The position numbers and the translations under genes are program-made. Under the pieces are notes generated by a model. It was given only the letters and a program-made list of their open reading frames with translations. It ran no database searches and was not told the DNA's origin. Positions 19,096 to 47,888 of a stretch of 64,000 nucleotides of DNA are shown here, piece after piece; position 1 is the stretch's first letter, and every line of letters starts with the position of its first letter. The DNA is from a virus: positions 1 through 64,000 of the IMG/VR virus record IMGVR_UViG_3300014913_000011, one strand, 5' to 3'.

Positions 19096-20277
19096 CTAGT
19101 ATCCTTTAGCTCTTAATTTCTGTATTCTCAGGTCTACAGCATTAATTAGATCCTGCTTTCCTTGATTACGTAAAACACTTTTTGCTACTTTCAGAGTGCC
19201 ATAATCAGTACATTTATTAATACTTTCAATGGCTTCCTTTGTAGTAGCTGCTCTTATAATATGATCCTGTGTAATTGTTTCTGGTGTAGCTGTACCTTGA
19301 AATACTTGAGTACCTTTCCCAGTAGTTATTACTTGATCTACACTCCTAGCGGTTGATTGTAAATTGTCGCCAGTTATTACCTGAACTCTGTCTCCATTTG
19401 CGCCTTCAGCTGTGACAACTGGTCCTGGGCCACTTATTGAGCTAATACTCTCAACTGTTTCGGAACTTGGTTCAGTTATTTCTACAACTTTGTGAGTAAC
19501 TGGTACCTCTTGTGTTGTAATAACACCTGTTTGTCCAGTTGAAACTACTTCAGTTAGGGAAGCATTTGGATTTGGTGCTGGATTAGCCATAAATGAGTTA
19601 GGCTGTTCAATCTCTATTACATTAATTTCGCTACTTTCGTCTGGAATATTTTGAACAGGTGTTACAGCATAGCTATTACCATTAAGCTGTGTATAACTAT
19701 TAGTATCTAGATCATCCCCAGTCATTACATTATCATCAATGTACTGATTCTTATTCATCTCTTTCACAGACTGTACAGACATAGCCTTTGACGTGCTCAT
19801 ATCAGGTGTATCTACTACTACTTGTCCTTCTAGGCTTTTCTCTGAATTCACTGCCGATGTAGTTTGTTTTACTATCTCTGGCACTGGTTTAGTATGGACT
19901 GTATTTACTTGACTCTTACGAAGTGCCTCCATAGCCTGTTCCTGGGAGTCTGCTACTTGTACCTCTCCCGATTCTACTAACTCTACTTCTGGCTCCGCTG
20001 ATTTTAGTACTTCTTCACTGACAGTTTTATTTTGATAGAATCCCCTATCGAAATGTGCTACAAACTTACCTTTAAATCTGTCTAAATATTTACCTTGTAA
20101 CCAAACTACGAATTCTTCTCCACATTCTTTGACAGGGCTGCGATCTTTAAAAAACTTAAATATGCTGGTTAATGGAATATCTCTGTATTCCTTCCCAATA
20201 CCTGGGTGCCAGTCATGCCCCAACGCCCTAACAGGACTATTACCATGATATCTTATAAAACTTCTATCTTTTGCCAT
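19096..20277 (-). CDS. Hypothetical Thr/Val/Ser-rich protein
   Basis: 393 residues, ATG with a strong SD (GAGGAG). The N-terminal 80 residues are basic and aromatic (FKFFKDRSPVKECGEEFVVW), the middle is a long low-complexity region rich in Thr, Val, Ser, Gln and Glu, and the C-terminal 45 residues form a helical domain (AKSVLRNQGKQDLINAVDLR). The layout suggests a flexible linker between two small domains. It lies between the membrane cluster and a DUF1360-like gene. I do not recognise the family. Confidence 0.5.
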   Translation of the reverse strand: MAKDRSFIRYHGNSPVRALGHDWHPGIGKEYRDIPLTSIFKFFKDRSPVKECGEEFVVWLQGKYLDRFKGKFVAHFDRGFYQNKTVSEEVLKSAEPEVELVESGEVQVADSQEQAMEALRKSQVNTVHTKPVPEIVKQTTSAVNSEKSLEGQVVVDTPDMSTSKAMSVQSVKEMNKNQYIDDNVMTGDDLDTNSYTQLNGNSYAVTPVQNIPDESSEINVIEIEQPNSFMANPAPNPNASLTEVVSTGQTGVITTQEVPVTHKVVEITEPSSETVESISSISGPGPVVTAEGANGDRVQVITGDNLQSTARSVDQVITTGKGTQVFQGTATPETITQDHIIRAATTKEAIESINKCTDYGTLKVAKSVLRNQGKQDLINAVDLRIQKLRAKGY

Positions 20278-20282
20278 TTAAT

Positions 20283-20645
20283 TTACTCCTCTGTAAAAAT
20301 ATTAATATATCTACGATCTTTATCCTTATCAAAATACTTATCAATAGCGCCATGAAGTATGTTGCTTAACCTATGCAGTATAATCCAAGAAAGTAAAAAA
20401 TTAACATAAGAGGGACATCCCTCTATTAAATTTAAATCAGGATCAATATTAACATTAAAACAAACTAGTACATTCAATGAAACCCAAAAAGAAAAACAAT
20501 ATCCACAAGATAGTAATTCATTTAAGAAATTACAAGAATCTTTCAATAAAGTCCTGAGTTTATCAAACAAGCCTGCATTTAATATAGCATAAGTTATCGC
20601 TTCTATTGCGATAACCAATAATACTATATCACAAAATACTTTCAT
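20283..20645 (-). CDS. DUF1360-like membrane protein
   Basis: 120 residues with three hydrophobic stretches (residues 5-22, 43-64 and 80-97). The second contains CGYC followed by SFWVS, the 'C..C..FW' signature of the DUF1360 membrane family found in phages and spore formers. SD TTAGGTAT lies upstream. The function of DUF1360 is unknown. It is grouped with the lysis-type membrane genes, so a role in membrane modification is possible but unproven. Confidence 0.6.
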   Translation of the reverse strand: MKVFCDIVLLVIAIEAITYAILNAGLFDKLRTLLKDSCNFLNELLSCGYCFSFWVSLNVLVCFNVNIDPDLNLIEGCPSYVNFLLSWIILHRLSNILHGAIDKYFDKDKDRRYINIFTEE

Positions 20646-20680: not shown

Positions 20681-21379
20681 TTATTTTGAGTTTTTAAATG
20701 AAACTCTTTCTAGAGCTGCATCACGAGCGGGTAGTTGAATCAAACTATAAATGTCATCAGGATTTATTACATTGTATATTTCGAACCAATCTTTCGGTGG
20801 TTTTCCTGACTGTGGATGAATAACTGCATCTCCATACTTAGATACTAGAGCCTTACCATACTTAGAATCTGTACGAATAAGGTATCCAGCTCCAAATCTA
20901 CCAAGATTGGAAATACTTTCATTTTTAGACTTTTTAGCTAACTCTTTATTATACCAAATTAAATTTTTAGTATAAATTAAACTAGACTCTGGAGAGCCTT
21001 GAATAAAGTATGCTGCCCATTTAATAGGTGAACTATCACCTGGTCCTACATTTTCTCCTATACCTAAAAATTCATTAGATAATACTGTTATTGTAACCTC
21101 TCCACTATCTGTAACACTGCTAGCTGATTTGGTTAATTGAGATTTAACTTCCTCTTGGATAATTTCTGAAAAGTTTAAAAACCTAGTAGGGTCGTCTTCT
21201 GCCTCTCCCCCCCAATATTCCTCCTGCATTCCTTGAAACATTTGCATGACTTTTACAGTAAAAAACTGATGAACTTGATCTGATTTTAACCTCCTTCTAA
21301 CCTCTTGATAATAGGCCCTACTCAGATCTCTCTTTAAATCTCTTATCCCTTTTTTAGCTTTCTCTAAGTCCTTTACCAT
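20681..21379 (-). CDS. Putative neck or tail-joining protein
   Basis: 232 residues, starting with a basic helical segment (LEKAKKGIRDLKRDLSRAYY), then a beta-rich region with a membrane-free hydrophobic core (IKWAAYFIQGSPESSLIYTK). It overlaps the intein-bearing gene at its start (ATG inside the previous stop region). Position in the neck cluster fits an HK97 gp10-type joining protein; the sequence is too diverged for a firm assignment. Confidence 0.45.
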   Translation of the reverse strand: MVKDLEKAKKGIRDLKRDLSRAYYQEVRRRLKSDQVHQFFTVKVMQMFQGMQEEYWGGEAEDDPTRFLNFSEIIQEEVKSQLTKSASSVTDSGEVTITVLSNEFLGIGENVGPGDSSPIKWAAYFIQGSPESSLIYTKNLIWYNKELAKKSKNESISNLGRFGAGYLIRTDSKYGKALVSKYGDAVIHPQSGKPPKDWFEIYNVINPDDIYSLIQLPARDAALERVSFKNSK

Positions 21380-23172
21380 GGCCCATCATCGCTAGGTATA
21401 GTGGGAGGATCATTTGGAGTTCCTGAATCTGCTTGATCCGAACTAGATCCATGTATATTCTTTATAATTCTCGGGTCTGTATCATAATGATCTGATACGC
21501 TCTTATCTGTTTTTACTGTAAGTGTATAAAATTCCACTATATGATCTGCTCCTAGTCCTTTAGTTCTTGGTGGAGATGTTAAAGCACATTCCACTCCATC
21601 TATTATAAACTTTTTTGCATCTCTACACAAGGCATAATTACATTTAAAAGTTTTTATTCTACAAACATTCTCACCATCCCAACCAGCGGATAAGTCTAAA
21701 AAGTCTCCTTTAGGGTTCCAAGTTACCAGACCTTTTATACATTCAAATCTTTTTTCAGTTAGTATACCCTGTCCTTTACATACTGGACATATTGAAGTTC
21801 TTAAGATTTTTGGATTATCTAATGAAGGGTCATACTGTATCCCTGCAGGTGCTGACTCAACATTGAAAGGCTGTGGGTAAACCTTCCGCTCGACTGAAGA
21901 TCCAACAAAGATATTAACAGGTCTGATAAATTCTGAATAATATATATTAGTTGATTTACCTCTAACAGTATCAAAGATGCAATTATTAACACTTATACCT
22001 TCAGCTATGTAGCTATGTTCATTAGTAACTTCAATATTATAAACAGTTGTTTCTTTTTTAAAGGAGTCTAAGGATTTTACCACCTGAAATAGTTTATTAC
22101 CATCCTGAAGAGATCCTCTCAAGTTATACTCCTTATCATTCCAGTATCTTATCTGGTAGCTATCTCTATGCTTTACTTTATTTTTATCAATAAATGCATT
22201 AGTTTTTCTTATACTAACTTTATATCCACAAGATAAAAGTAGATTATATACTTGATATGCTAATTTTTTAGAAATTGTAGTTAACACATTAGCATTAAGG
22301 TTCTTTTCAAAATGTCCATCTCCAGTATAAAGACCAGAAATTAAAGACATAGTTTGCTCCTCATTTAATGTGTAATATAGTTCTTCTGGGATCTTCTTAT
22401 TTCCTGCTAAGTGTCCGCACCACCTATCTAGTAAATCAGCTAGCTTAGAACTGTACATTTCAAAAACTAGATTCTTACTATTAGGTCTATCTTGTATTCC
22501 ATAGTTTAAATCGCAGACTTCTGACCATAAGTCACATACTTTAATACCTACATCTCTCTCTGAGTTATTTAAACAGTAAAGTATACTTCTACCTTTTGAC
22601 GTTACTCCTTCTGCTATGTATAATCCTATTGCAAATAGCAAATCATTAGATAATTGTAATTTTTCTGGTGAGGTTTTCTTTGGGCCTGTGAGATTCTCTT
22701 TCCACTTTATCTTCCTCTCAACTAATCTCTCCTTTGGTAACTCTCTTATACTTTTAAACACTAAGTCACCTTTTTGAATATCACTTATGGACTTTTCTAC
22801 CTGTTTTCCAATTATTGGTTTATAATTTGTACCTAAGTTAGAATATACCTTTAATTTATGATTGGAAGTAGCAGATATACCTACACTGTTTCCATACATA
22901 TGAATAGTATTAAAGTTAAACGTCCCTCCCTTGATAAAAGTTTTTGAAACCTGCTGAAGGTTACCTAACCCATCTATAACTTGATCACCTGGCACAAAAT
23001 CTTGAATTTCTTTCAATCCATTACCTGTCTCTATTAAAGTACCATATTCAAAACAATTGGGACAGTCTACTTCATATGGATCCATAATTACGGCTAAAGA
23101 TCTTCCCATCTCCTTAATGTAACTGTTCATACCTTTGTGAAACTGTTTCTTTAGATCTTTAGGTATTTTCAT
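21373..23172 (-). CDS. Intein-containing zinc-knuckle neck protein
   Basis: 599 codons; SD AAGGTT. Codons 40-397 are an intein, so the mature protein would be about 241 residues. The extein begins MKIPKDLKKQFHKGMNSYIK and has a zinc-knuckle region made of CPNC (37-40 after splicing) and a later CPVCKGQG, giving a CxxC...CxxC ribbon. The spliced Cys398 would become the fourth ligand in the first knuckle. The rest is beta-rich and ends in a Pro/Asp/Ser-rich tail. It lies among neck genes next to a head-completion type gene. The specific role in head-tail joining is inferred from position. Confidence 0.75.
   Translation of the reverse strand: MKIPKDLKKQFHKGMNSYIKEMGRSLAVIMDPYEVDCPNCFEYGTLIETGNGLKEIQDFVPGDQVIDGLGNLQQVSKTFIKGGTFNFNTIHMYGNSVGISATSNHKLKVYSNLGTNYKPIIGKQVEKSISDIQKGDLVFKSIRELPKERLVERKIKWKENLTGPKKTSPEKLQLSNDLLFAIGLYIAEGVTSKGRSILYCLNNSERDVGIKVCDLWSEVCDLNYGIQDRPNSKNLVFEMYSSKLADLLDRWCGHLAGNKKIPEELYYTLNEEQTMSLISGLYTGDGHFEKNLNANVLTTISKKLAYQVYNLLLSCGYKVSIRKTNAFIDKNKVKHRDSYQIRYWNDKEYNLRGSLQDGNKLFQVVKSLDSFKKETTVYNIEVTNEHSYIAEGISVNNCIFDTVRGKSTNIYYSEFIRPVNIFVGSSVERKVYPQPFNVESAPAGIQYDPSLDNPKILRTSICPVCKGQGILTEKRFECIKGLVTWNPKGDFLDLSAGWDGENVCRIKTFKCNYALCRDAKKFIIDGVECALTSPPRTKGLGADHIVEFYTLTVKTDKSVSDHYDTDPRIIKNIHGSSSDQADSGTPNDPPTIPSDDGPW
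21982..23055 (-). mobile_element. Intein with LAGLIDADG endonuclease in the neck protein gene
   Basis: Encodes residues 40-397 (358 residues). Block A starts CFEYGTLIETGNGLKEIQDF; block B is SATSNHKL; two endonuclease motifs are AIGLYIAEG (181-189) and ISGLYTGDG (278-286); block F/G is VYNIEVTNEHSYIAEG, then ISVNN before Cys398. Cys at position 1, Asn at the end and Cys at +1 form a standard class 1 splicing set. The penultimate residue is Asn instead of the usual His, which is seen in some active inteins. The DNA insertion lies within the codons for a zinc-knuckle, a conserved site. Confidence 0.93.
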
Positions 23173-23174
23173 GG

Positions 23175-23810
23175 TTATTCAACCTTGTAGACTGGTAGAC
23201 TCATCATCTTACATCCACTCTTAATTTCTAATGAATGTTTAAGCTCTTTTCCAACTATGTTCATAAATGTGGCTAACGATTGTGGTCTCCTACTAGCATC
23301 AAATTTGCTATCACTGTCTTCTAAGTTAACTGCCTCACTAATATACTTAGACATATCTTTACTTAAAAGTACATAAGCCGTAGAGAGGGATAATAAATCT
23401 TCCCCCAAATCCGTATCTGATAAAGAACATTGACCTGTCAGGAAGGTATGTGCAGAAGTATCGTATGTATTTATTATCTCTAAATCTGAATGTCTGAACT
23501 TATCGTACACTACTGTTAAACTAATCCCTGAAACCAAGGGTCCTGGTACTGTATCCCACTGTAAGTACTCATGATTCAGAACCTGTACTCCACTTGTTAC
23601 TATAGCTCCACCAATTACAATGTCAGTTGGCCAACCTTTTGGCTCCTCTAATCCATACATAGAACCTTGTAATTTTACATTAGCACAGTAATCTACTGAG
23701 GTGATATCATCTACTACAGTTCTCTTCTCATCACCTATTAGTTGACGTATTCTAAAGACTATTACTTCTTCTGGTTGTGTTAAACTTATCTCTTCAGTAA
23801 ATGTAGCCAT
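23175..23810 (-). CDS. Putative head completion or connector protein
   Basis: 211 residues from the ATG at 23810. That start is preferred because it lies 4 nt after the upstream stop with AAGGAT adjacent; a GTG at 23834 is the alternative. The protein begins MATFTEEISLTQPEEVIVFR, is soluble, and combines helices and strands in a pattern common to connector adaptors (for example LVSGISLTVVYDKFRHSDLE, then a helix-rich end). It is between the pseudo-receiver gene and the intein-bearing neck gene. Assigned by neighbourhood only. Confidence 0.5.
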   Translation of the reverse strand: MATFTEEISLTQPEEVIVFRIRQLIGDEKRTVVDDITSVDYCANVKLQGSMYGLEEPKGWPTDIVIGGAIVTSGVQVLNHEYLQWDTVPGPLVSGISLTVVYDKFRHSDLEIINTYDTSAHTFLTGQCSLSDTDLGEDLLSLSTAYVLLSKDMSKYISEAVNLEDSDSKFDASRRPQSLATFMNIVGKELKHSLEIKSGCKMMSLPVYKVE

Positions 23811-23814
23811 ATCC

Positions 23815-24162
23815 TTAACTTGCCATGATCTCACTTATATATGTACTAAAGTCCTCTGAGTTGGTGGTCTTACTAATTATCCCAGAAATTCCATTGTAAG
23901 AGGGTCTTAATACATCCTCTCCCTTACAACACGTAATTACTATATCTCCATCATATCCTTGACTTCTTAGGCTATCATAAACTTCAATACCATTTCTATT
24001 CCTTAATAGATGACTAACTATCACTAAATCATAGTTGTTTAAATCCTTATCTAGATCTTCATTTAACGTTTCTATAAACTTGATATCAGACTCTATTGTC
24101 AGTAGCTTCCTTCTATACATTGTTTCATAACTCTTGGAATCAATTACTAATAGTTTTGACAT
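23815..24162 (-). CDS. CheY-like pseudo-receiver protein
   Basis: 115 residues, ATG with the SD AGGAG. It aligns end to end with a CheY receiver domain: LLVIDSKSYETMYRRKLL (strand 1/helix 1), NNYDLVIVSHLLRNRNGIEV (strand 3 loop), DIVITCC (strand 4 with the conserved Thr) and GISGIISKTTNSEDFSTYIS (strand 5 with the conserved Lys). The phosphoacceptor Asp is replaced by Ser (VIVS), and only one of the N-terminal acidic pair remains, so ordinary phosphorylation is unlikely. It is embedded among neck genes, without a partner kinase in the window. It might be a structural adaptor or a decoy for host signalling. Confidence 0.75.
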   Translation of the reverse strand: MSKLLVIDSKSYETMYRRKLLTIESDIKFIETLNEDLDKDLNNYDLVIVSHLLRNRNGIEVYDSLRSQGYDGDIVITCCKGEDVLRPSYNGISGIISKTTNSEDFSTYISEIMAS

Positions 24163-24171
24163 ATTAAACTC

Positions 24172-24558
24172 CTATATATATCCTAACTGTTTAGCTATTA
24201 CCAGACCTGCTAATACAGTTGCTGCCACAGTCTTTATAATAAAAGATAGTTTACTATTTTTGATATTAGTAACTTCAGTATCTAAATCTTCGAAACTATC
24301 AGTTGCTTTTCTTAATTTTGCCTTCATATTCTCTAACTTTTCTAAATATAGTTCAGAGTGCTCCTCAAAAGCTATTCGGGTCTTCTCTGCGACATAGAAT
24401 GTATCTCGCATTTCTTCACTTTTTTTCTTTAGTTCTTCACTTAATTTCCTGTGTTCAGTTCTAAGGTCTTTAAGACTATCTTTGATATACTCAATATCTT
24501 TGAATGCTTGAATTAATTGTACATACTCTTCCGCTTCTAACTTATGGAAATCATTCAC
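24172..24558 (-). CDS. Coiled-coil protein with C-terminal membrane segment
   Basis: 128 residues, ATG with GGAGG about 12 nt upstream. Almost all of it is a charged amphipathic coiled coil (10-100, Lys/Glu/Leu heptads); the end (KLSFIIKTVAATVLAGLVIA) is hydrophobic and could insert in a membrane. This resembles the XhlA-type haemolysin-like accessory proteins of phages, in topology only. A promoter motif (24606-24615) lies upstream. Its place between pseudo-receiver and fibre-like genes gives no further hint. Confidence 0.5.
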   Translation of the reverse strand: MNDFHKLEAEEYVQLIQAFKDIEYIKDSLKDLRTEHRKLSEELKKKSEEMRDTFYVAEKTRIAFEEHSELYLEKLENMKAKLRKATDSFEDLDTEVTNIKNSKLSFIIKTVAATVLAGLVIAKQLGYI

Positions 24559-24639: not shown

Positions 24640-25668
24640 TTAGAATTTCTGGAAATTTGACCTTACCCAGAATGCCCCAGTGTGGTAATACATGAAGTTA
24701 CGATCCCAACGTACCTCACCTTCTTCACCTAGTTCTGCTGAGGATATTGGTGAAGATCCTGATGTAGTTATTAATACCCCACTAATTGTAAGTTTATTTT
24801 TTACTGCAACTTCATTACCATCACACCATAGTGCGTCTGTTGCTGCAAATCCTGACCCATTGTGATGTAAGGTATCCCCATAGTTGCCAGCAATTGATGC
24901 AGAGCCTCCACCAAATGAACCAATGTATCTAAAAGCCTCTATGTATAGCGGTTTGGAATATCCCAAATCATCTGCTGTAAATCCAGAACCAAAAAGTATA
25001 AGTCCTTGCTGCCAGTTCGGTATCCAAGCTCCTTGAGTGGTAAAAATTTCGGTGCCATCTGCTTCATATAGTCTAATAGCATACCCAGTGCCAAACCTAG
25101 CATTTGGTATAAAATTTTTGATATTGTTAGAAAATGTATTGCCTGCTTCGTCTTTAGTAAACCAAGCAAGTCCGTTTGATGCTAAATCCTCTGTTAGATA
25201 TATCCTACTCTGTAACACAGCAGAGCCAGCAGAAACACCTGAGTTACTATTTAAAGTTATAGTATAACTTCCCCCACCATTATCTACTGCATTTATTATA
25301 GATTTAATATAAGTTGCATTAGGATGTACATCTGTAACTTGATATCCGATTTGTGGAATTATTGTAGTAGTAAGAATGTCCCAATCAAGTCCATTAGCTA
25401 CAAGAGTAATACCCTCCCCCTGACTACGATCTTCTACTATAGAACCAGAAGCAGTTGCTGCAGCCTGAGCTTGAGCTTGAGTAGTTGTTACTGGAATTAA
25501 ACTTGAATTTGCCCAGATATCCTCTGGATAAATTATATGTGTTGAAGGTACTTTCTCCTCGTACCACATCTTACCACCAGCATTTGGGTCAGTATTGACA
25601 GTACCCTGCAGACCAAACAAGTGTTTGAAATTAATATTTAACTTTTCGGTATCTGAAAAATCAGCCAT
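24640..25668 (-). CDS. Fibre-like virion protein
   Basis: 342 residues. The C-terminal end (GEEGEVRWDRNFMYYHTGAF, then WVRSNFQKF) matches the short tip domain common in phage fibres, 'GEIR.D.NFLYV...G.W.RS'. The centre is a Gly/Thr/Ser-rich beta region (ASIAGNYGDTLHHNGSGF), and an Ala/Gln-rich segment (TTQAQAQAAATASGS) near residue 65 could be a helical shaft. It is part of a pair with the 617-residue protein upstream. The gene is far from the tail-tip genes, next to head and neck genes, so a head fibre is possible. Confidence 0.5.
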   Translation of the reverse strand: MADFSDTEKLNINFKHLFGLQGTVNTDPNAGGKMWYEEKVPSTHIIYPEDIWANSSLIPVTTTQAQAQAAATASGSIVEDRSQGEGITLVANGLDWDILTTTIIPQIGYQVTDVHPNATYIKSIINAVDNGGGSYTITLNSNSGVSAGSAVLQSRIYLTEDLASNGLAWFTKDEAGNTFSNNIKNFIPNARFGTGYAIRLYEADGTEIFTTQGAWIPNWQQGLILFGSGFTADDLGYSKPLYIEAFRYIGSFGGGSASIAGNYGDTLHHNGSGFAATDALWCDGNEVAVKNKLTISGVLITTSGSSPISSAELGEEGEVRWDRNFMYYHTGAFWVRSNFQKF

Positions 25669-25671
25669 AAA

Positions 25672-27525
25672 TTATGTCCAGTTAATAATCTCCATTCTGG
25701 TAATAACAGTTGAAACGGCTTCAGGATTTTTTAAAGTCACTCTTGCTTCTATAGCTTTATTCTCAGCAAATGCTGTAGAAAAACCACCAAACGTAAATTC
25801 AAATTCGGGGGCTAGGTATCCACCAGTGTTTACAAAACAACCATCTCCAACATCACCTGTAAATGTTCCAATATTATAAGGGTCATTTAAGCTAAGCCAG
25901 TCAGTCCCTTCATTTCCGGGGCCTTGTACCCCATTTCCAGGTATATGAGTTCCAACTACTCTAATCTCTACTAACACCTCCTTAGAGGTTCTTTGGACTT
26001 CTGTAAGTCCAGCAATTCTAAATACTCCATTGGTTCTAGAAACACCAGATGAATCCTTAAACTGTCTAATGTAAACCTTATCAGTTCCCTCCCCCACAAT
26101 ACTAGTATAATCTCTATTAGCCAGGGGATCCATACTAGAAAAGTCAACCTGAGGAAACACTAATAAACCATTTATTACTTGCAATCCAGTACCCGAAATT
26201 AACGTCATAGTTGAGTCCCAAGACCTAGCACCTCTAGATGGGCCATTTATTCCTACCACTGATCCACTCGCATTAGTCATGCGATAATCTTCATCTAAAA
26301 ATAACTCTAAAGTATCCGTTGACTGATTTCCAAATGTATTTATAAGTATTTCAGGGTTCGCACTAAATAAGGAACCATTACTCGTAAAAAATGGATCTCT
26401 TACCACATAACGCATCTGTGCAAAATTATTGTCCTCATCAGGATTAATTACATCGTTGTTTATACTCTTAGTACCACTATATATAAAATCATCTGCATGT
26501 TCAAAAGGTAGTACTGGAGGATTTACACCTTCACTAGTAACATCTACATTATTATAATTTATTACGAAGTTGTTTATACCATATTCAATTGAATTAACTA
26601 GAATAGGATCTGTTCTGTACGTATCTTTCCATACCTCCAAAGCATCTAAGTAAAACTCTACTGATGATCCTTGACCTGCAAACTTAATGCCACTTAACCA
26701 TTTAATTGCAACTGCATCCATTTTTAAATTTTGAGAATTAATACTAGGTGCTGTTCCAGTATCCAAAAAATAATCTATTACCTGTGAGTAGGAAGCTGAA
26801 TCAACAATGTGTTCTACTACTATTTGTACATAACCTGTTCCACCTAATAAGCTAAATGCGGGTAAAGAAACTTCTACAAATCCTTCTATCCTATCAAAGT
26901 TCCTTTGTAAAGAATTTATCTCTAAGTATCCTTGTGGCGTACTTACTTGGTCATTTAAGGAACCATCTAAACTTAAAGTCTCAGTATGAATTAGCACATT
27001 GTTACCATTGTAATATTTTACAGTTACTTCTCCTGATTGAAGATCTGTTATTTTCTGTCCAGTGTCTAAGTTCCAGTCTAAAGTATTAGTTCTAGTTATA
27101 TCTCTGTTAGTATCATTGTCCCAGGAGTTTGTATAGAAAGGAACTCCTAAAGAATCTGGACTTGCAACTCTACCTATAGTAAAAAATGGGGAGACTAATA
27201 GTCCATTAGTATTACCATCTAGACTTCCAATGTGACTTGCATAACTTCCAGACACAACAGGGGGCACACTTCCTGAAAAGCAAATCCATTGCATATTATC
27301 TGGATCACTTAATTGTAAACACCCTGTAGTTTTATTATAAATTAAAACGCCATGCTGAGTAGGTACATCCGTTATATCTAAAAAATCTGATTGTTCAACT
27401 AAGGGTACATATCCAATTATATCCCTATTGCCGTTTTCTGCATAGAGATATCCTTGATCTATGAATCTAGCATCTGAACTCTGTGCAACCCTAGATCTGG
27501 GTCTTTTTTTATCTCCTTGAACCAA
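25672..27525 (-). CDS. Fibre-like or adhesin-like virion protein
   Basis: 617 residues from a TTG start with AGGA about 5 nt upstream; no ATG lies near the N-terminus. A basic start (KKRPRSRVAQ) is followed by a short GYVPLVEQSDFLDITDVP... CLQLSDPDNMQWICFSGSVP segment with the layout of fibre-base domains, then a long beta-rich body with Thr/Ser/Asn repeats. A carbohydrate-binding or jelly-roll fold is suggested by the pattern, not by a family match. It starts a two-gene unit with the fibre-like gene downstream, set off from the capsid genes by a terminator and a promoter motif. Confidence 0.5.
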   Translation of the reverse strand: MVQGDKKRPRSRVAQSSDARFIDQGYLYAENGNRDIIGYVPLVEQSDFLDITDVPTQHGVLIYNKTTGCLQLSDPDNMQWICFSGSVPPVVSGSYASHIGSLDGNTNGLLVSPFFTIGRVASPDSLGVPFYTNSWDNDTNRDITRTNTLDWNLDTGQKITDLQSGEVTVKYYNGNNVLIHTETLSLDGSLNDQVSTPQGYLEINSLQRNFDRIEGFVEVSLPAFSLLGGTGYVQIVVEHIVDSASYSQVIDYFLDTGTAPSINSQNLKMDAVAIKWLSGIKFAGQGSSVEFYLDALEVWKDTYRTDPILVNSIEYGINNFVINYNNVDVTSEGVNPPVLPFEHADDFIYSGTKSINNDVINPDEDNNFAQMRYVVRDPFFTSNGSLFSANPEILINTFGNQSTDTLELFLDEDYRMTNASGSVVGINGPSRGARSWDSTMTLISGTGLQVINGLLVFPQVDFSSMDPLANRDYTSIVGEGTDKVYIRQFKDSSGVSRTNGVFRIAGLTEVQRTSKEVLVEIRVVGTHIPGNGVQGPGNEGTDWLSLNDPYNIGTFTGDVGDGCFVNTGGYLAPEFEFTFGGFSTAFAENKAIEARVTLKNPEAVSTVITRMEIINWT

Positions 27526-27641: not shown

Positions 27642-27674
27642 CAAAAAAAATGCCCACTATATTTCAAGTGAGCA
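27642..27674 (-). terminator. Rho-independent terminator after the major capsid gene
   Basis: On the minus strand, an 8-bp stem (UGCUCACU with AGUGGGCA, one G-U) with an 8-nt loop is followed by eight Ts. It is 30 nt after the capsid stop codon and separates the capsid operon from the fibre-like genes. Confidence 0.85.
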
Positions 27675-27703
27675 TTATAGTAAAATTAATTACTTATCGG
27701 CAA

Positions 27704-32958: not shown

Positions 32959-35103
32959 TTATTTCTTGGATTTTAGTAATGTGATTAACCTCTTTTTCTC
33001 ACCTTCTGGTAACTCTCTAATATTACTAATTAAACCTTCTACTTCTACATCTATATTAGTATTGTCCGAAGCTTTGGTTCTGGTTTGTTTTTGTTGAGTA
33101 GGACTATCTACCTTAGTTTTTTTTGTAACTGTTTTAGTATTATCTACTGGTTTCTTGTTTCCAGTTGGTTGTCCTTTTGGTCTACCCTGGTCTCCAGATG
33201 TTTGTTGAAAAGGACTCCCAGGTATTCCTATACCCTCTGCTTCCAACTTTAACTCTTCTCGCATCTTCTCTACTTCTGCTTCTGGATCAAATCCCAAGAC
33301 TTGCATAGTGGTATGTCTGGAAACTAGTTTTCTATCAATCATTTGCATCATGGAAGCTCTAGTAACTGCATCACTGTCTGTTGTAATAACTGATTGTTGC
33401 CATCTCACTACCGGATAAGAATTAAAGCCATTTTGTTCTGCTATTAGCTTATATTGCTTATAAATCCAGGCAGTTATTGCTCTTCTAACGACATCTATCT
33501 GACTTTGAGTTGACTTAGAAGATAGTACTGCTGCTGCATTTTGTATAGAGCTGCCGTCAATTATGGCTCTAGATATACCTAAACCTGCTTGAATGTCCAT
33601 CTCTACTTGCTCATACTTGGCCTTTCCAAGGATGGCACCTATATCGGGGGTAGTTATTTTCTCAATATCCAAAGTATGATTCCATACTACAGAGAATGCC
33701 TTTTGAGGGGTGTTAAAGGCTTCTGCTAGATCTTCTAGAACCTTTAGATCAGTAACTGGGTGGTCCTTATCCCCTACAGTTACCTTTAGAATATAGTTAA
33801 AAATTCCATCTAAGGTAGCAAAATCGGCTGCTACTAGTTCGTCCTTATAATCGATGGCATCAAAAATCCTGGATCCTCTAGGTTTCGCATAAGCTTCATG
33901 GTCATCCTTACGAAAAAATATGACATCTAATTCATCACCCGTGAATAGGTAGTCATCTCCCCCTATAGCGGAAGCTTTCATTTTGGTGGGGACCATTCCT
34001 ATTAACTGTTTCTCCTCTGGACTCATTTCTCTCTTCTTTTGTCTCTCTACTGATTCCTTCAAACCAGATAAACCTTTAGAGGTGTAAGTGTAAGTAGCCC
34101 CACCAAAAAACCCTGAACTCTCTACATTCATATGTTTAGGATTTAATAGAGTATAAGCTATTGGCATCTTCCCGGATGCTTTTTTAGCTGCCACCTCTAT
34201 TTCCCTCGCAATCGCTGCATCATACCTTTTCTTATCCTGTTTGGTCCATTTTTTTCCAGTTACTTTTTCATAAACATCTCTAGATAGTCGAAGAAGGGTT
34301 GCCTTCTCTTTTTGTTTTTTCTTAGTATTAGTGGGTATTTTCCCAGGCAATGATGAGATTCCACCTGTATTTGGCTCATAACTACCTGTTCCTGGCATGA
34401 CATACGCTATACCATACTTGAATAGGTTATTAATTATCTTGTCTACTGTCTTCAAAAAGTTAGTATCTAAAATCCAAGAATCATAAAACTCCTTTATAGC
34501 CTCATCTGCTATTTCGTTTACGAACCCTGTTGATGTGAAGTCTGTGAGTGCGTCTATAGCTGATCCATATATTCCAGATCTGTAATATTCAACTTCAGAC
34601 CTTTCATATAGTTCAACTGCGTTCGCTTCGTCAGGTGTTTTCTCTCTGAGATCTAGTTCCTCATTGCTCAGAGGTGTACGGTATCTTTGATTCAGGGAGG
34701 CCATTTCTAGGGAAGCCATTTCTTTGTTGGTCTGTTTGACCTGCTTCACTACTTCTTCTATTCCTTTACCATTCTCTACTGCTTTAGCTATATCTCTTAA
34801 ACCTGCTATCTCTATCTGTCGAAGAAAGTTATCTCTTGTCTTGTTTAAATTTAATTTATGATATAGACTACCTCTATTAACCTGTCTCTCTGTAACTAGT
34901 TTATTTAATTGATCTTTATTTGCAAAAAAATTTCTATCAGCATCAAATTCTGAAATACTTAACTCTGCCGATAATTTTCCGTCCTTTATGTCACTAACCT
35001 TACTAATTTGGATACCTTTAGGTTTTAATGACTTATTAACTTTTGAAATTATGGCTGCTTTATCTATCTTTTTATTCTTATCGTCGTCTTTTTTTTCTAC
35101 CAC
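32959..35103 (-). CDS. Portal protein
   Basis: 714 residues, GTG start overlapping the terminase end by 26 nt; GGAGGAG lies about 15 nt upstream, slightly far. The N-terminus is Lys-rich. The core YERSEVEYYRSGIYGSAIDA ... LFKYGIAYVMPGTGSYEPN is a portal signature ('yyrsp.v.~Ai...~~~v...G.~y..~'), and later YEQVEMDIQAGLGISRAIID plus AVLSSKSTQSQIDVVRRAIT match the portal clip/crown region. The C-terminus is Lys/Gln/Thr-rich. It follows the terminase and precedes the protease. It would form the dodecameric DNA channel at one capsid vertex. Confidence 0.82.
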   Translation of the reverse strand: MVEKKDDDKNKKIDKAAIISKVNKSLKPKGIQISKVSDIKDGKLSAELSISEFDADRNFFANKDQLNKLVTERQVNRGSLYHKLNLNKTRDNFLRQIEIAGLRDIAKAVENGKGIEEVVKQVKQTNKEMASLEMASLNQRYRTPLSNEELDLREKTPDEANAVELYERSEVEYYRSGIYGSAIDALTDFTSTGFVNEIADEAIKEFYDSWILDTNFLKTVDKIINNLFKYGIAYVMPGTGSYEPNTGGISSLPGKIPTNTKKKQKEKATLLRLSRDVYEKVTGKKWTKQDKKRYDAAIAREIEVAAKKASGKMPIAYTLLNPKHMNVESSGFFGGATYTYTSKGLSGLKESVERQKKREMSPEEKQLIGMVPTKMKASAIGGDDYLFTGDELDVIFFRKDDHEAYAKPRGSRIFDAIDYKDELVAADFATLDGIFNYILKVTVGDKDHPVTDLKVLEDLAEAFNTPQKAFSVVWNHTLDIEKITTPDIGAILGKAKYEQVEMDIQAGLGISRAIIDGSSIQNAAAVLSSKSTQSQIDVVRRAITAWIYKQYKLIAEQNGFNSYPVVRWQQSVITTDSDAVTRASMMQMIDRKLVSRHTTMQVLGFDPEAEVEKMREELKLEAEGIGIPGSPFQQTSGDQGRPKGQPTGNKKPVDNTKTVTKKTKVDSPTQQKQTRTKASDNTNIDVEVEGLISNIRELPEGEKKRLITLLKSKK

Positions 35104-38035
35104 TTTTCTGTGTTATAACTCCTCCGTTCCTTATTCTACGAATCCCGCTTGATCTTTGCTCTTGCATGAACTCCTGAGGTGTACAAACTAGTCTACCTTG
35201 TTGTATCATACCAACATCTGGGCCAGATGTCAAACTTTGTTCGTTTATTTCCCTTATTATACCTGTTGTAGGTACACTTAAATCTTCTCCGGGCTTAAAC
35301 CCCCGATCATACGCACATTTACCTGCTAATATGAAGGCTGTATATAAATCCTTTGTGTTCTTGTCCAGATTTGATTTTCGCGCTGCATTACTGCTGTTTG
35401 CATTTTTAGGTAAATCATACCTTGGAAGTTCTTTAACACCTGAACTAGTTATGATGATTGAAGCTATTTGATCTATCATCTTCTGAACTAAATCTATTGT
35501 TTTTATCCTTCCTTTTGCGTCTGGTGAGCTTTGTACTTCTATTGGATTATTAGATTGAGGTAATTTTAATAAACCTTGCTCTAATAATGCCTTAGTATTA
35601 TTATTAGCATCACCTATAAATTCACTTACAAAATTACACATAGTAAGAATTCTCTTTCCTGTCATAAAAGGGCTTGACTCTTTCTCAATAATCTTTGTTT
35701 TTAGATGATCTCCCACGTCTAATTGACTTGGATCTGCTAGTAGATCCTGTAAAGTTCTACCTCCACCTCCAGAATCCATGTAAATTTCCTCAGGACTGAA
35801 TTTGAATATTAAATCAAGGATAGTTTTTGCCTGATCCTGGAAAGAGGCAGTGCCCCCTGGAATTTCTACTATATGAACTACCTTACATACGAACCCTAGC
35901 TCCATAATTACTATTGCTGTAGAATCTCTATCCCTAGCCACGTCAATTCCGAATACGTATTTGGTGTTTTTATGTTTATTTAAATCTCTCTCTGAATATG
36001 GAACTAGATCCACTTCCCTACATGCAGAAAGTAAAGCCATCGGAAATGCACCTGCTGAGTCTGCAATCCACTCAGCACACCACTCTGTAAGGAACATATG
36101 CGAAGGATCGTTATTCATTGCATTATCAATTAGGTCTTGCTCTAAAAAACCTTCAGGTATATCATTCCAAGGAACAAAATTTAAGGAGTGCTTATTACTT
36201 CCTGCTTTCATCTGTTGCCAAAATTTTTGAATAGTAGCCCACCAGTAATTAAATTGGTAATATCCAGAAGTAATCGCGATATATCCATTATCAGTGGAGA
36301 GTAAGTTTTCTATTAACTGTATATTATTTTTTCCTGACTCCTTATACTCGTTCTTAAGTTTTTCTAATTCTATTACCCTACCCATAGGATCAACTGATGT
36401 GGCAAGCATAGGTAGAATTACACTACTTAGAATTACCTCAGGGAGCTGAACACACTCATCAATTAATATCTCACTAAAACGTAGCCCTCTAATTTTTGCT
36501 CCATCTGTTCCTACTGGCAAAGCATTTAAGTAACTAGACTGATAACCCGTTGCAGGTGGTTTGAGTATACACTTACAAGCATCATTACCTTCAGTTGGCT
36601 CTTTAAGAATGCATTCTGCTAATAAAGGACTATCATCTACAAACTTTGTAAACTCTTTAAAAATAAGTTTTGACTGCCTGTAGGAAGGACCGAATACTCC
36701 CATTCTTGAGTTTGGATATAATAACATTTTAAGTGCTAAGTATACAGCACATAGGAACGTATTATGAGTAACGATATAATCATCGGTTACATATAGTTCT
36801 TCAGGATCATCTATCTTTATGCAGGTTGCATAATCTTTCTTTCCCGTAAACTCTATTGATTCTATCCTAAGACCAAAATTTTTTTCTGAATATTGATCTG
36901 TTTCTTTAAATCTCTCTAATTTTCTAGGTGATGAAACCAGTTCTCTTTTATCTTTATACCTAATACCTAATCTATAAGACTTTCTTCCTTTAACCTTGTC
37001 TCCATACTTATCCGTATACTTAGTTACTCTCGCCTGTATTGTACATATTCCACCCAATTTCCAAATTAAGGTTTGCACTTGTGTAGCCAACTCTTTACTT
37101 GTCGTTGTGTAGGTTATACTTCCACCTTTCACAGTTGTTCTATCTGTATCTATTAAACCCTGGATTAATTCGATGGTTTGTTTTCTTGATAGATTCATGT
37201 AGGCTTCAGGTATACTTTTGTCTTGGGACTTTTTACCAAAAATATTTAACCTTTTTAGTTCTTCTTTTAGAGTGTTTATATGAACTCTGCCTAAATTTCT
37301 TAGTTTTTTATGAACTATTACATAGTCATACTTACCTCTCTTGGAAAGTTCTAAATCTTCAGGTAGTGCCTTTGATACTTTCTCTAGTATAAAACCATCA
37401 GCTGAAGTAAATCCTACGTGATGTGTCATACATCCATCTCCAACTAAAGCCCCCAATAGGTACGGATGTATGTATAATTCTTTATCCACTTCTAATACTA
37501 CATTCTCTGCGACAGGTATTCTAGGATACCTATGATTTCTCTTAGCTTTACCACTACCAATATACTCTTTAATATCCTCTGTTTCTAATACTTCATACTG
37601 CCCAGATCCATTTACCCCTCGGACTGTCCATAAGTGTTCTTTAGTACACTCACAGGTTCTTCCATCATAGAAGTTTACTTTATAGATGTCTTGCTTACCC
37701 TGTGGAAATATACCTATGACATTACTTAAGCTGCCTTTAGGAGTAATAACTTGGTCACCGATTTTAATATCTTCAATTTTTACCCAACCATTAACTGTTA
37801 ATACTTTAGATCCATTAACAGTCGCTTTACCAAATCCTCTAGAAGCAGTAAGTTGGTTGAACTTGCTCTGCCACCAATCCATTAAAATCTTCCCCTGCAC
37901 TGGTAATAATGTCACAGGTCTACCATCTCTTACTAATAAATGATTAGCAGCTATTATAGGATTCTGCCTATAAAAATGAATTAATCTTGTTATATCGTCT
38001 GGTAAAGTATTACTTCTAGATTGAATTAAAACCAT
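35078..38035 (-). CDS. terL: Terminase large subunit containing an intein
   Basis: 985 codons; codons 71-425 are an intein. The mature protein (630 residues) packages DNA into the head. The ATPase Walker A is split: TASRGFGK (63-70) joins TFLC (426-429) after splicing. Walker B is LRFSEILIDEC. The C-terminal RuvC-type nuclease has GIDVARDRDSTAIVI (first Asp), IYMDSGGGGRTLQDLL (second) and further acidic residues downstream. It ends in a basic run (GRKKRRR). Upstream is a small-subunit candidate and downstream the portal, the canonical order. It starts by coupling (TTAATG) with no clear SD. Confidence 0.95.
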   Translation of the reverse strand: MVLIQSRSNTLPDDITRLIHFYRQNPIIAANHLLVRDGRPVTLLPVQGKILMDWWQSKFNQLTASRGFGKATVNGSKVLTVNGWVKIEDIKIGDQVITPKGSLSNVIGIFPQGKQDIYKVNFYDGRTCECTKEHLWTVRGVNGSGQYEVLETEDIKEYIGSGKAKRNHRYPRIPVAENVVLEVDKELYIHPYLLGALVGDGCMTHHVGFTSADGFILEKVSKALPEDLELSKRGKYDYVIVHKKLRNLGRVHINTLKEELKRLNIFGKKSQDKSIPEAYMNLSRKQTIELIQGLIDTDRTTVKGGSITYTTTSKELATQVQTLIWKLGGICTIQARVTKYTDKYGDKVKGRKSYRLGIRYKDKRELVSSPRKLERFKETDQYSEKNFGLRIESIEFTGKKDYATCIKIDDPEELYVTDDYIVTHNTFLCAVYLALKMLLYPNSRMGVFGPSYRQSKLIFKEFTKFVDDSPLLAECILKEPTEGNDACKCILKPPATGYQSSYLNALPVGTDGAKIRGLRFSEILIDECVQLPEVILSSVILPMLATSVDPMGRVIELEKLKNEYKESGKNNIQLIENLLSTDNGYIAITSGYYQFNYWWATIQKFWQQMKAGSNKHSLNFVPWNDIPEGFLEQDLIDNAMNNDPSHMFLTEWCAEWIADSAGAFPMALLSACREVDLVPYSERDLNKHKNTKYVFGIDVARDRDSTAIVIMELGFVCKVVHIVEIPGGTASFQDQAKTILDLIFKFSPEEIYMDSGGGGRTLQDLLADPSQLDVGDHLKTKIIEKESSPFMTGKRILTMCNFVSEFIGDANNNTKALLEQGLLKLPQSNNPIEVQSSPDAKGRIKTIDLVQKMIDQIASIIITSSGVKELPRYDLPKNANSSNAARKSNLDKNTKDLYTAFILAGKCAYDRGFKPGEDLSVPTTGIIREINEQSLTSGPDVGMIQQGRLVCTPQEFMQEQRSSGIRRIRNGGVITQKSGRKKRRR
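36761..37825 (-). mobile_element. Putative class 3 intein with LAGLIDADG endonuclease in terL
   Basis: Encodes residues 71-425 (355 residues), inserted inside the Walker A P-loop. It starts with Ala (ATVNGSKVLTVNGWVKIEDI) instead of Cys/Ser. Block B is TKEHLW with Trp136; block F is ATCIKIDD with Cys405; it ends VTHN before Thr426. Trp at block B, Cys at block F and Thr at +1 are the W-C-T set that defines class 3 inteins, in which the internal Cys replaces Cys1 as the first nucleophile. Two endonuclease motifs are visible: LLGALVGDG (193-201) and IQGLIDTDR (291-299). Splicing is required to make a working packaging ATPase. Confidence 0.9.
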
Positions 38036-44980: not shown

Positions 44981-46060
44981 TTATTCATCCTCTGCAGCTA
45001 AGGCTATAAATGCTCCCTCAGCAACTGCCTCCAATGGCCTTCTCGCATGACAAACTTCTTTAACTTTAAAAGGTAATTTACTTTCTATTTTTTCAAACTC
45101 TTCCTTAAAAACCTCTAGAAAGTCTCCAGCTAAGGAGGTACCTCCAGATACTACAATTTTAACTGGCTCTAAAAACCTAGGCTTAGATTCTAACGAATCA
45201 ATTTTATTAACTATACTTTCTACCATATACTTAATTAAAGCTTTGTAATAGGAAGAGATAGCTATTTCAGCCATTTCATTTCCTGGATTCTTAATACTAA
45301 TTCCACTCTCTTTAGTGTAAGTCATTAAACTGGGAGTAATATCACTTGCTTTTGGGTCCTTAGGATCATATCCTAAACTTGTCGCAGCGGAGTAATCTAC
45401 ATAGTCGCCTCCTTTACTTACTGAGAAGGTGGTAATAACTTCAGCCATGTTAGTTATACATACGTTTGTCATGCCTGACCCACAACTTATTGCTATTCCA
45501 GTGTAGTCCTCTTCTTCTAATTCACAGAATACAATTGCTTGAGCTTCATTTATAGCCTTTCCTATAAAACCTAAATCTGCTAGTACTCTTTCGATTACAT
45601 TCTTATGATACTCAATATCAAATGGAGCGTCCTCAGGTGAAGCTGGTACACTATATACTACTAACTCGTTTGGTACAACAGGTTCTCCTAGTAACTCTTT
45701 TAATAATATTTTGAAGAGTGGAAGTGCCTGAGCCTCTCTCGGAGAAATTACACCTTTATGCATTGGCCTTCTTACAGTCATTTGTTTCTCTATAGCTACA
45801 TTTAAAGAATCATTTCCTAAGATATGGAGTTTCTTATCTTCTTGGATATAACTTACACCTGATTTATCTAAACCTTTTTTCATCATTTTAAAAACTAAGT
45901 CACCTCTAGGTTGAAGTTCTAGAAAGGAATCCCTTACTGATTTTGTCTCTACATCCCCAGATTCTAACATTCTACTCTCCACTAGGAAACCTGTCCCAAC
46001 GTCTAGCCCTCTCCCTGGTAAATACTTTTTAGCTTCCATAGGTTTATTTTCCTTTTCCAT
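44981..46060 (-). CDS. Actin-like ATPase (MreB/ParM/Alp type)
   Basis: 359 residues from the ATG at 46060; SD AAGGAG. Actin-fold nucleotide motifs are visible: phosphate-1 GLDVGTG (about 18-24), connect-1-like VYSVPASPED, phosphate-2 IAISCGSGMTNVCI and adenosine motif IVVSGGTSLAG. It would polymerise in an ATP-dependent way. Phage-borne actins (Alp family) have been linked to DNA or virion positioning in the cell. It overlaps the nuclease gene upstream by 17 nt and precedes the amidase gene. Hsp70-like ATPase is less likely given the length. Confidence 0.78.
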   Translation of the reverse strand: MEKENKPMEAKKYLPGRGLDVGTGFLVESRMLESGDVETKSVRDSFLELQPRGDLVFKMMKKGLDKSGVSYIQEDKKLHILGNDSLNVAIEKQMTVRRPMHKGVISPREAQALPLFKILLKELLGEPVVPNELVVYSVPASPEDAPFDIEYHKNVIERVLADLGFIGKAINEAQAIVFCELEEEDYTGIAISCGSGMTNVCITNMAEVITTFSVSKGGDYVDYSAATSLGYDPKDPKASDITPSLMTYTKESGISIKNPGNEMAEIAISSYYKALIKYMVESIVNKIDSLESKPRFLEPVKIVVSGGTSLAGDFLEVFKEEFEKIESKLPFKVKEVCHARRPLEAVAEGAFIALAAEDE

Positions 46061-46454
46061 CTTCAATAAGTCTCCTTTTCCTGTAAACTAAGTTACCCTT
46101 GTTTATTTCTGATATCGCCTTTAATATAGTATTTTTTACACTTTTGGCATTGTCTTTTAACTCACAGCTACAAAATCTAAGTATACTTAAGTTATATCTT
46201 TTATGGTATGCAATACAAGCTATGTCTTTCTTTATCCTAAGTAGCTGTCTATCTGTAGGTTTTTTTTGAATCTTACATTTAAAACAGTATGAATGAAAGT
46301 AATTTCCATCTGCTTGAATACTTAATTTATAACTTGGAAGGTAAGCATCAACATTATAAGTTCCAAGTCTATATTCCCTAACATAAGGTATACCCTCATC
46401 AGCTAAGATGTCTAACAGAATTTTCTCTATATCAGTAAGTTTTCTATTGGTCAT
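46044..46454 (-). CDS. Vsr/DUF559-like PD-(D/E)xK nuclease
   Basis: 136 residues, no strong SD. The core GTYNVDAYLPSYKLSIQADG, then NYFHS matches the Vsr/DUF559 fold ('VDfylP.yklaIEvDG..H'), with Gln where the usual catalytic Glu stands; the downstream DRQLLRIKKDIACIAYHKRY matches the following helix. A CFKC pair sits near His. In phages such nucleases are often site-specific nicking or homing enzymes. It overlaps both neighbours. The Gln substitution leaves its activity in doubt. Confidence 0.65.
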   Translation of the reverse strand: MTNRKLTDIEKILLDILADEGIPYVREYRLGTYNVDAYLPSYKLSIQADGNYFHSYCFKCKIQKKPTDRQLLRIKKDIACIAYHKRYNLSILRFCSCELKDNAKSVKNTILKAISEINKGNLVYRKRRLIEDGKGK

Positions 46455-47540: not shown

Positions 47541-47888
47541 TTAGTACCTAAACAACTTAACTGGCTTATCTAATTTTGTCATAGCACTTAGCATGGATCT
47601 ACTTCCAGGACTTTTTCCATCCCAAAACAATAGTAACATGTCTCCATAGTCTGCCATTGATTTATTTCTAATAGGTCCAGCTGACGTTCCGTATGTTTTC
47701 CAGTCCGGTTCAAAATTTGTTATCTGTATTTTACTTAAATTTGCCCAACATTCTCCTAAACTATCAGCTCCCTTAGCTGCTCCTGATACTATCTCTGATA
47801 TTTTGATCTCCTTTGATATGTCATTTAACGCTGCAAATAATAACCTAGCATCATCAAAATCTCGTCCACCTGCTACAATAACTTTCAT
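47541..47888 (-). CDS. SLOG-domain protein of the DUF2493/YspA family
   Basis: 115 residues, ATG with AGGTG. Motifs in order are VAGGRDF (4-10), IVSGAAKGADSLGECWA, FEPDWKTYG..AGPIRNKSM and LLLFWDGKSPGSRSML, which identify the SLOG DUF2493 family. SLOG domains bind nucleotide-derived ligands such as ADP-ribose, and some act in phage-host conflict signalling; the ligand of this one is unknown. It overlaps neither neighbour and lies in a cluster of small genes next to replication genes. Confidence 0.82.
   Translation of the reverse strand: MKVIVAGGRDFDDARLLFAALNDISKEIKISEIVSGAAKGADSLGECWANLSKIQITNFEPDWKTYGTSAGPIRNKSMADYGDMLLLFWDGKSPGSRSMLSAMTKLDKPVKLFRY

Follow-up and report, generated by a model that had tools for sequence, protein, structure and literature searches.

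The open reading frame at positions 23815–24162 of the window (minus strand; the window is the whole stretch of 64,000 nucleotides analysed, positions 1 to 64,000 of virus record IMGVR_UViG_3300014913_000011) was confirmed, by profile similarity together with a predicted structure, to encode a genuine stand-alone homologue of the receiver domain, in which the position of the phosphoacceptor aspartate is occupied by serine. The gene is accessory and is no core component of the phage neck. Our tentative preference, held at somewhat less than an even chance, is for an aspartate-less receiver that serves as a late accessory, phosphorylation-independent binding module directed at a signalling partner in the host. 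Phage late modules are already known to carry receiver genes, and cells to carry aspartate-less receivers; the aspartate-less variant of the phage late-module receiver appears to be new, and no report of a phage-encoded example was found in a limited search of the open-access literature.

A search of viral contigs using the window's major head protein brought out six related loci. One of these, L007, encodes at the same position as the pseudo-receiver a 129-aa protein which is 39–42% identical to it, depending on the alignment. When searched alone, the window protein matches the Pfam profile PF00072 (Response_reg) with an E-value of 3.5e-4 and 21.1 bits, its best NCBIfam matches are EvgA and NarL, and phmmer gives weak matches to EvgA, ArlR, NarL and CheY. 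The L007 ortholog alone matches PF00072 with an E-value of 1.2e-5 and 25.9 bits, over profile positions 1–105 of 111. Because both scores fall below the curated cut-off of 30.2 bits, the protein is, on sequence, to be filed as a divergent PF00072 homologue and not as an automatic Pfam member. A profile made from the two sequences had, at E≤1, matches to 90 sequences of the PDB, of which the best 60 were almost all receivers, with the best match (2.5e-6) running end to end; the proposal of the sequence-only reading, that the 115-residue protein aligns with a receiver domain over its full length, is thus upheld. A credible family was not found for the open reading frame in a PHROGs search.

Structure prediction with AlphaFold2 from the two-row alignment gave one confident model of five (pLDDT 78.3, pTM 0.75), the remaining four having mean pLDDT values of 38–54, so the fold assignment rests on the best model and on the independent sequence evidence. 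The order of elements in this model is beta-alpha-beta-alpha-beta-alpha-beta-(no helix)-beta-alpha, with the alpha4 slot non-helical, and the predicted protein has the (beta-alpha)5 fold of receivers. Foldseek against the PDB returned receivers as the top matches (best 2.5e-6, prob 1.00), VIA-align superposed the model on receiver domains with Z 13.8–15.2 and rmsd 2.1–2.7 over 108–114 residues, and phage and giant-virus receivers were the best matches in a viral structure library. The predicted fold is therefore receiver-like, as had been supposed from the sequence. A chance resemblance to receivers was rejected, the profile, Foldseek and VIA-align matches being far beyond chance.

The codons of the catalytic pocket, as identified from alignments, are as follows:

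24139..24141, minus strand: Asp8, first residue of the acidic pair, conserved
24136..24138, minus strand: Ser9, where the second acidic-pair position is lost; Ser in the L007 ortholog too
24013..24015, minus strand: Ser50 (AGT), at the phosphoacceptor Asp position; the ortholog likewise has Ser
23932..23934, minus strand: Thr77, at the conserved Thr/Ser position; Val in the L007 ortholog
23869..23871, minus strand: Lys98, at the conserved Lys position, conserved in the ortholog

Asp8, Ser50, Thr77 and Lys98 coincide with the catalytic positions of receivers, and the register of Ser50 against CheY is exact and ungapped to Gly58 (S50..G58 corresponding to CheY D57..G65), which places serine precisely where the sequence-only reading had put it in exchange for the phosphoacceptor. 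That reading had also taken the Lys and the Thr to be kept; Lys98 is found in both phages, while Thr77 is present in the window and absent from the ortholog. The loss of the second acidic residue had not been remarked on. In addition, the switch aromatic three residues before the Lys is lost in the window and L007 proteins (Ile/Leu), and the D-S / S / K pocket is shared by both. With Ser50 in place of Asp and Ser9 in place of the second acidic residue, the protein is no canonical phospho-accepting receiver. Asp phosphotransfer is established receiver chemistry; in this protein it should not occur, because Asp is absent at position 50 and half of the metal site is gone. The protein instead falls within the published definitions of pseudo-receivers and aspartate-less receivers (ALRs; PMC12632262, PMC4395418), a pseudo-receiver being a computationally recognisable receiver without the phospho-Asp or any of five key residues (PMC12632262).

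Judged from codon-position identities between the window and L007 orthologs (0.50/0.68/0.38), the pair show selection on the protein, that is, protein constraint. Identity amounts to 47/115 overall and is higher in residues 44–98 (29/55) than elsewhere (18/60; Fisher p 0.015). The beta4-beta5 segment (LRPxYNG) and the pocket rim rank among the best-conserved stretches, and conservation is lowest in alpha2 and alpha5. Pocket and rim positions are identical at eight of nine, compared with the overall figure (permutation 0.004), which is suggestive, and no stronger than that because the positions were picked after seeing the alignment and from a single pair, of an altered pocket that is maintained and not decaying. 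Single-sequence scans of viral contigs found the L007 ortholog alone, and a two-sequence profile scan of viral contigs, along with searches of annotated phages, gave nothing beyond it. The same profile found no relative in bacterial and archaeal genomes, nor did a profile of the head protein. L007 supplies the one ortholog found.

The gene lies in a minus-strand run with the order major head protein, hairpin, 617-aa protein, 342-aa protein, coiled-coil-like protein and pseudo-receiver, continuing with an adaptor-like protein, an intein-containing 599-aa protein, further genes and a presumed tape measure protein of 2092 aa. The features around it are:

27649..27676, minus strand: terminator-like hairpin after the major head gene (consensus match; 2 found against 1.9 expected, weak alone)
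24640..27525, minus strand: a pair of large accessory proteins, of 342 and 617 aa, that open the gene run and are also present in L007
24172..24558, minus strand: coiled-coil-like protein (128 aa) with a C-terminal hydrophobic segment, co-directional and immediately upstream
24169..24173, minus strand: AGGAG Shine-Dalgarno-like site of the pseudo-receiver gene, sharing bases with the upstream gene's stop codon (sequence)
23815..24162, minus strand: stand-alone aspartate-less pseudo-receiver, 115 aa, ATG start (homology and predicted fold)
23175..23810, minus strand: neck/adaptor-like protein, starting at ATG 23810 and not GTG 23834 (homologue starts and structure matches)

Because the hairpin follows the major head gene, the run carrying the pseudo-receiver probably starts below it. 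A homologue of the coiled-coil-like protein occurs at the same place in L007, and the genes around the pseudo-receiver are near-abutting in both phages. The GTG start at 23834 is an ORF-listing artefact; homologues of the adaptor-like protein start close to the position that matches ATG 23810, so the pseudo-receiver and adaptor-like genes are non-overlapping, the stop codon of the former being 4 nt ahead of the start of the latter. Foreign composition was sought by comparison with neighbouring genes, and as the GC (0.316) and GC3 (0.276) of the pseudo-receiver are both inside their range, recent import is not indicated. The model of the adaptor-like protein is of low confidence (pLDDT 68.7); many phage neck and adaptor proteins are included in its best structural matches, such as T4 gp13 (Z 7.2), the KHP30 tail protein (Z 6.5) and neck proteins of phage 812 and T5 (Z 5–6). 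This weak resemblance to phage neck and adaptor proteins is supportive only, and it makes the earlier label of a neck gene cluster a fair one; the placing is also reasonable in that the cluster lies between the major head and presumed tape-measure genes. It had been stated as well that no kinase is adjacent, and a HATPase_c search found none across the entire 72.4-kb record, which may itself be a fragment.

Within this set of phages, the pseudo-receiver gene is present in the window and L007 only. Nine records possess the adaptor gene and lack the pseudo-receiver (L002, L003, L004, L005 and L035–L039); three pairs of these are near-duplicates (L002/L003, L004/L005 and L036/L037), so they represent about six distinct phages. 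A further record, L006, ends before the relevant place. The slot ahead of the neck-adaptor gene differs in content between lineages. In the phage type of L002/L003 the adaptor comes right after a lone gene of 188 aa; the type represented by L004/L005 has in the slot a coiled-coil-like protein of 145 aa whose C-terminus is hydrophobic; and in the more distant L035–L039 the slot is filled by relatives of genes found downstream in the window. A receiver profile search of the adaptor-bearing related records gave no receiver except the canonical one of G001/G002, described below. A core neck protein is present wherever the neck module is; the pseudo-receiver is not, and because it is missing from these nine records the gene is accessory. 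The same absence argues against an essential structural role.

The sequence-only reading had called such a protein among head-tail joining genes unexpected. This was overstated, because stand-alone CheY-like genes have been published from the late/tail modules of Alteromonas phages V22, A5 and P24, where their authors regard them as auxiliary metabolic genes (PMC10579305, PMC7289586). V22 gp30 and A5 gp11, described as class II genes of that kind, are, like the window protein, single-domain receivers located among accessory genes of a late structural module; theirs lie after tail fibre genes (PMC7289586, PMC10579305). They differ from it in position and in chemistry, since on translation both retain IVDD and the phospho-Asp. 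The resemblance is in fold only, BLASTP of the pseudo-receiver against V22 gp30 giving no alignment at E≤100. Receiver matches in INPHARED beyond the Alteromonas phages were set aside because bacterial contamination seems likely for many of the records concerned. With the ALRs and pseudo-receivers (PMC4395418; PMC12632262) the window protein shares the receiver fold and profile similarity, the replaced phospho-Asp and the retained pocket Lys; unlike them it is phage-encoded, free-standing and in a structural gene run, and has lost the switch aromatic too. The word phage is absent from both of those articles. The cRec domains of jumbo phages are similarly divergent phage receivers that are not tied to two-component kinases, but they keep the catalytic aspartates and sit with NAD/ADP-ribose enzymes (PMC7824862). 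Membership of cRec was rejected for the pseudo-receiver, as the Asp is lost and an NAD/ADP-ribose enzyme is absent among the neighbours tested.

Canonical receivers do occur in the same phage clade. The major head protein of G001 and G002 (L010 and L011; contigs IMGVR_UViG_3300037310_000195 and 3300037851_000542) is 70% identical to that of the window, and these contigs encode a receiver of 152 aa with a histidine-kinase gene on either side, one for a 406-aa protein of PAS-HisKA-HATPase architecture and the other for a 225-aa HisKA-HATPase protein. From sequence, the three genes form an apparent phage-borne two-component system. They adjoin a short ORF resembling a fragment of an endolysin. 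In contrast to the pseudo-receiver, the G001/G002 receiver scores above the Pfam cut-off, stands beside kinases and is located elsewhere in the genome; close descent from it was rejected, the pseudo-receiver profile having no match to it at E≤1.

A host-directed binding role is favoured because the gene is accessory and free-standing and has published counterparts. A single-domain CheY-like protein would have been acquired as an accessory gene in the variable slot between the major head and neck-adaptor genes. Made late, together with the head-tail proteins, and unswitchable by Asp phosphorylation, it would work as a constitutively shaped protein-binding surface, which may engage a host two-component partner (a kinase, phosphotransfer protein or receiver target) and occupy the site of the genuine regulator. 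Consistent with this are the ortholog with the same pocket at the same place, the absence of the gene from other neck-module phages, the late CheY-like genes of the Alteromonas phages, the receiver and kinase genes of the two related contigs, and PIT4 of Pseudomonas phage LSL4. PIT4 is a small phage protein which binds host histidine kinases (PMC10714779), thereby acting on host two-component signalling as is proposed here; it is the product of an early gene, unlike ours, and a receiver fold is not mentioned for it in the part of that report drawn on here, where its authors also state that no phage protein had previously been reported to bind a two-component component directly. Some observations weigh against a host-directed role. 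A protein for host takeover would not be expected to lie among structural genes and so, presumably, to be expressed late; alpha5, part of the usual kinase-docking surface, appears poorly conserved (3/14 identical) although alpha1 is kept (6/11); and the searches yielded a single ortholog.

The structural setting of the gene can also be explained if the receiver fold has been reused in the virion as an accessory neck adaptor or decoration, possibly with the 617/342-aa and coiled-coil proteins. This is unlikely, although it deserves attention: the gene is inside a structural run and abuts the adaptor gene in both phages, and the expanded 617/342-aa proteins are common to these same two phages, but about six distinct phages have the adaptor and do without the pseudo-receiver, and no structural phage protein is among the top receiver-fold matches. 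The sequence-only reading had offered a repurposed structural adaptor or a decoy for host two-component signalling; the pseudo-receiver identity behind both is borne out by homology and fold, an essential structural role is not, and a decoy is plausible. The conservation of the pocket rim and the LRPxYNG segment would equally suit a pseudo-receiver whose altered pocket binds a small molecule, the protein being a sponge or sensor, for which ShkA, which binds c-di-GMP through its pseudo-receiver, is a precedent (PMC7010744). With that conservation read from one ortholog, we consider ligand binding improbable.

Variable accessory slots often carry host-interaction genes, so the protein may act in counter-defence or another host interaction outside two-component signalling, with the receiver fold a mere scaffold; a specific sign of this is absent, and it is rated slightly less probable still than a ligand-binding role. 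A response regulator of phage or host origin, now decaying and without function, would account for the degraded active site and the few phages carrying the gene. This is quite improbable, given that the frame is intact in two phages at 42% identity, with the pocket conserved and coding-type constraint. Least probable of all, and very much so, is that Ser50 is phosphorylated by a Ser/Thr kinase and the protein remains a switch by other chemistry. Ser is a common substitute at ALR sites (15%) and its phosphorylation there has been proposed as possible, but the authors label the idea as speculation and were aware of no example at this site (PMC4395418), and both proteins have Ile/Leu in place of the switch aromatic, with Val for Thr in the ortholog.

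Returning to the preferred host-directed module, a bolder form of it, which we regard as doubtful, is that a phosphorylation-dead phage receiver, produced together with the neck proteins, rewires the two-component signalling of its host, either late in infection or, by riding the virion, at entry. Phage proteins interfering with bacterial two-component signalling are hardly known, and a viral receiver lacking the phosphorylation site would be a natural dominant-negative; if true, such viral pseudo-receiver effectors would be a class not described in the open-access literature searched, and this protein a defined starting point for finding which host pathway is important late in infection. The gene also shows that phage late modules have gained receivers on more than one occasion, some with the phosphorylation chemistry and some lacking it.

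A number of other features of the window were recorded. One 188-aa protein of L002 appears to be the counterpart of the 617- and 342-aa proteins in their N- and C-terminal parts, as if a single gene had been split and much enlarged. A 120-aa/393-aa gene pair lies downstream of the neck genes (window 19096–20645) and has relatives upstream of the adaptor in L035–L039; its place looks like a rearrangement hotspot. The 599-aa neck-region protein (window 21373–23172) contains an intein that carries a LAGLIDADG endonuclease, its intein-less homologues being of ~240 aa. The presumed terminase large subunit (985 aa, window 35078–38035) likewise holds an insert that resembles an intein and has a LAGLIDADG domain; similar sequence occurs within helicases and terminases of Aeromonas, Serratia and Proteus phages. 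The L004 relative of this subunit has 322 aa in the matched part. An actin-like protein (window 44981–46066) matches Pfam Volactin, a family named after a haloarchaeal actin, with an E-value of 3.5e-57, and the adjoining Amidase_3 gene suggests a bacterial host. A SLOG-family (YAcAr) protein of 115 aa (window 47541–47888) is a possible nucleotide-signal or defence-related gene.
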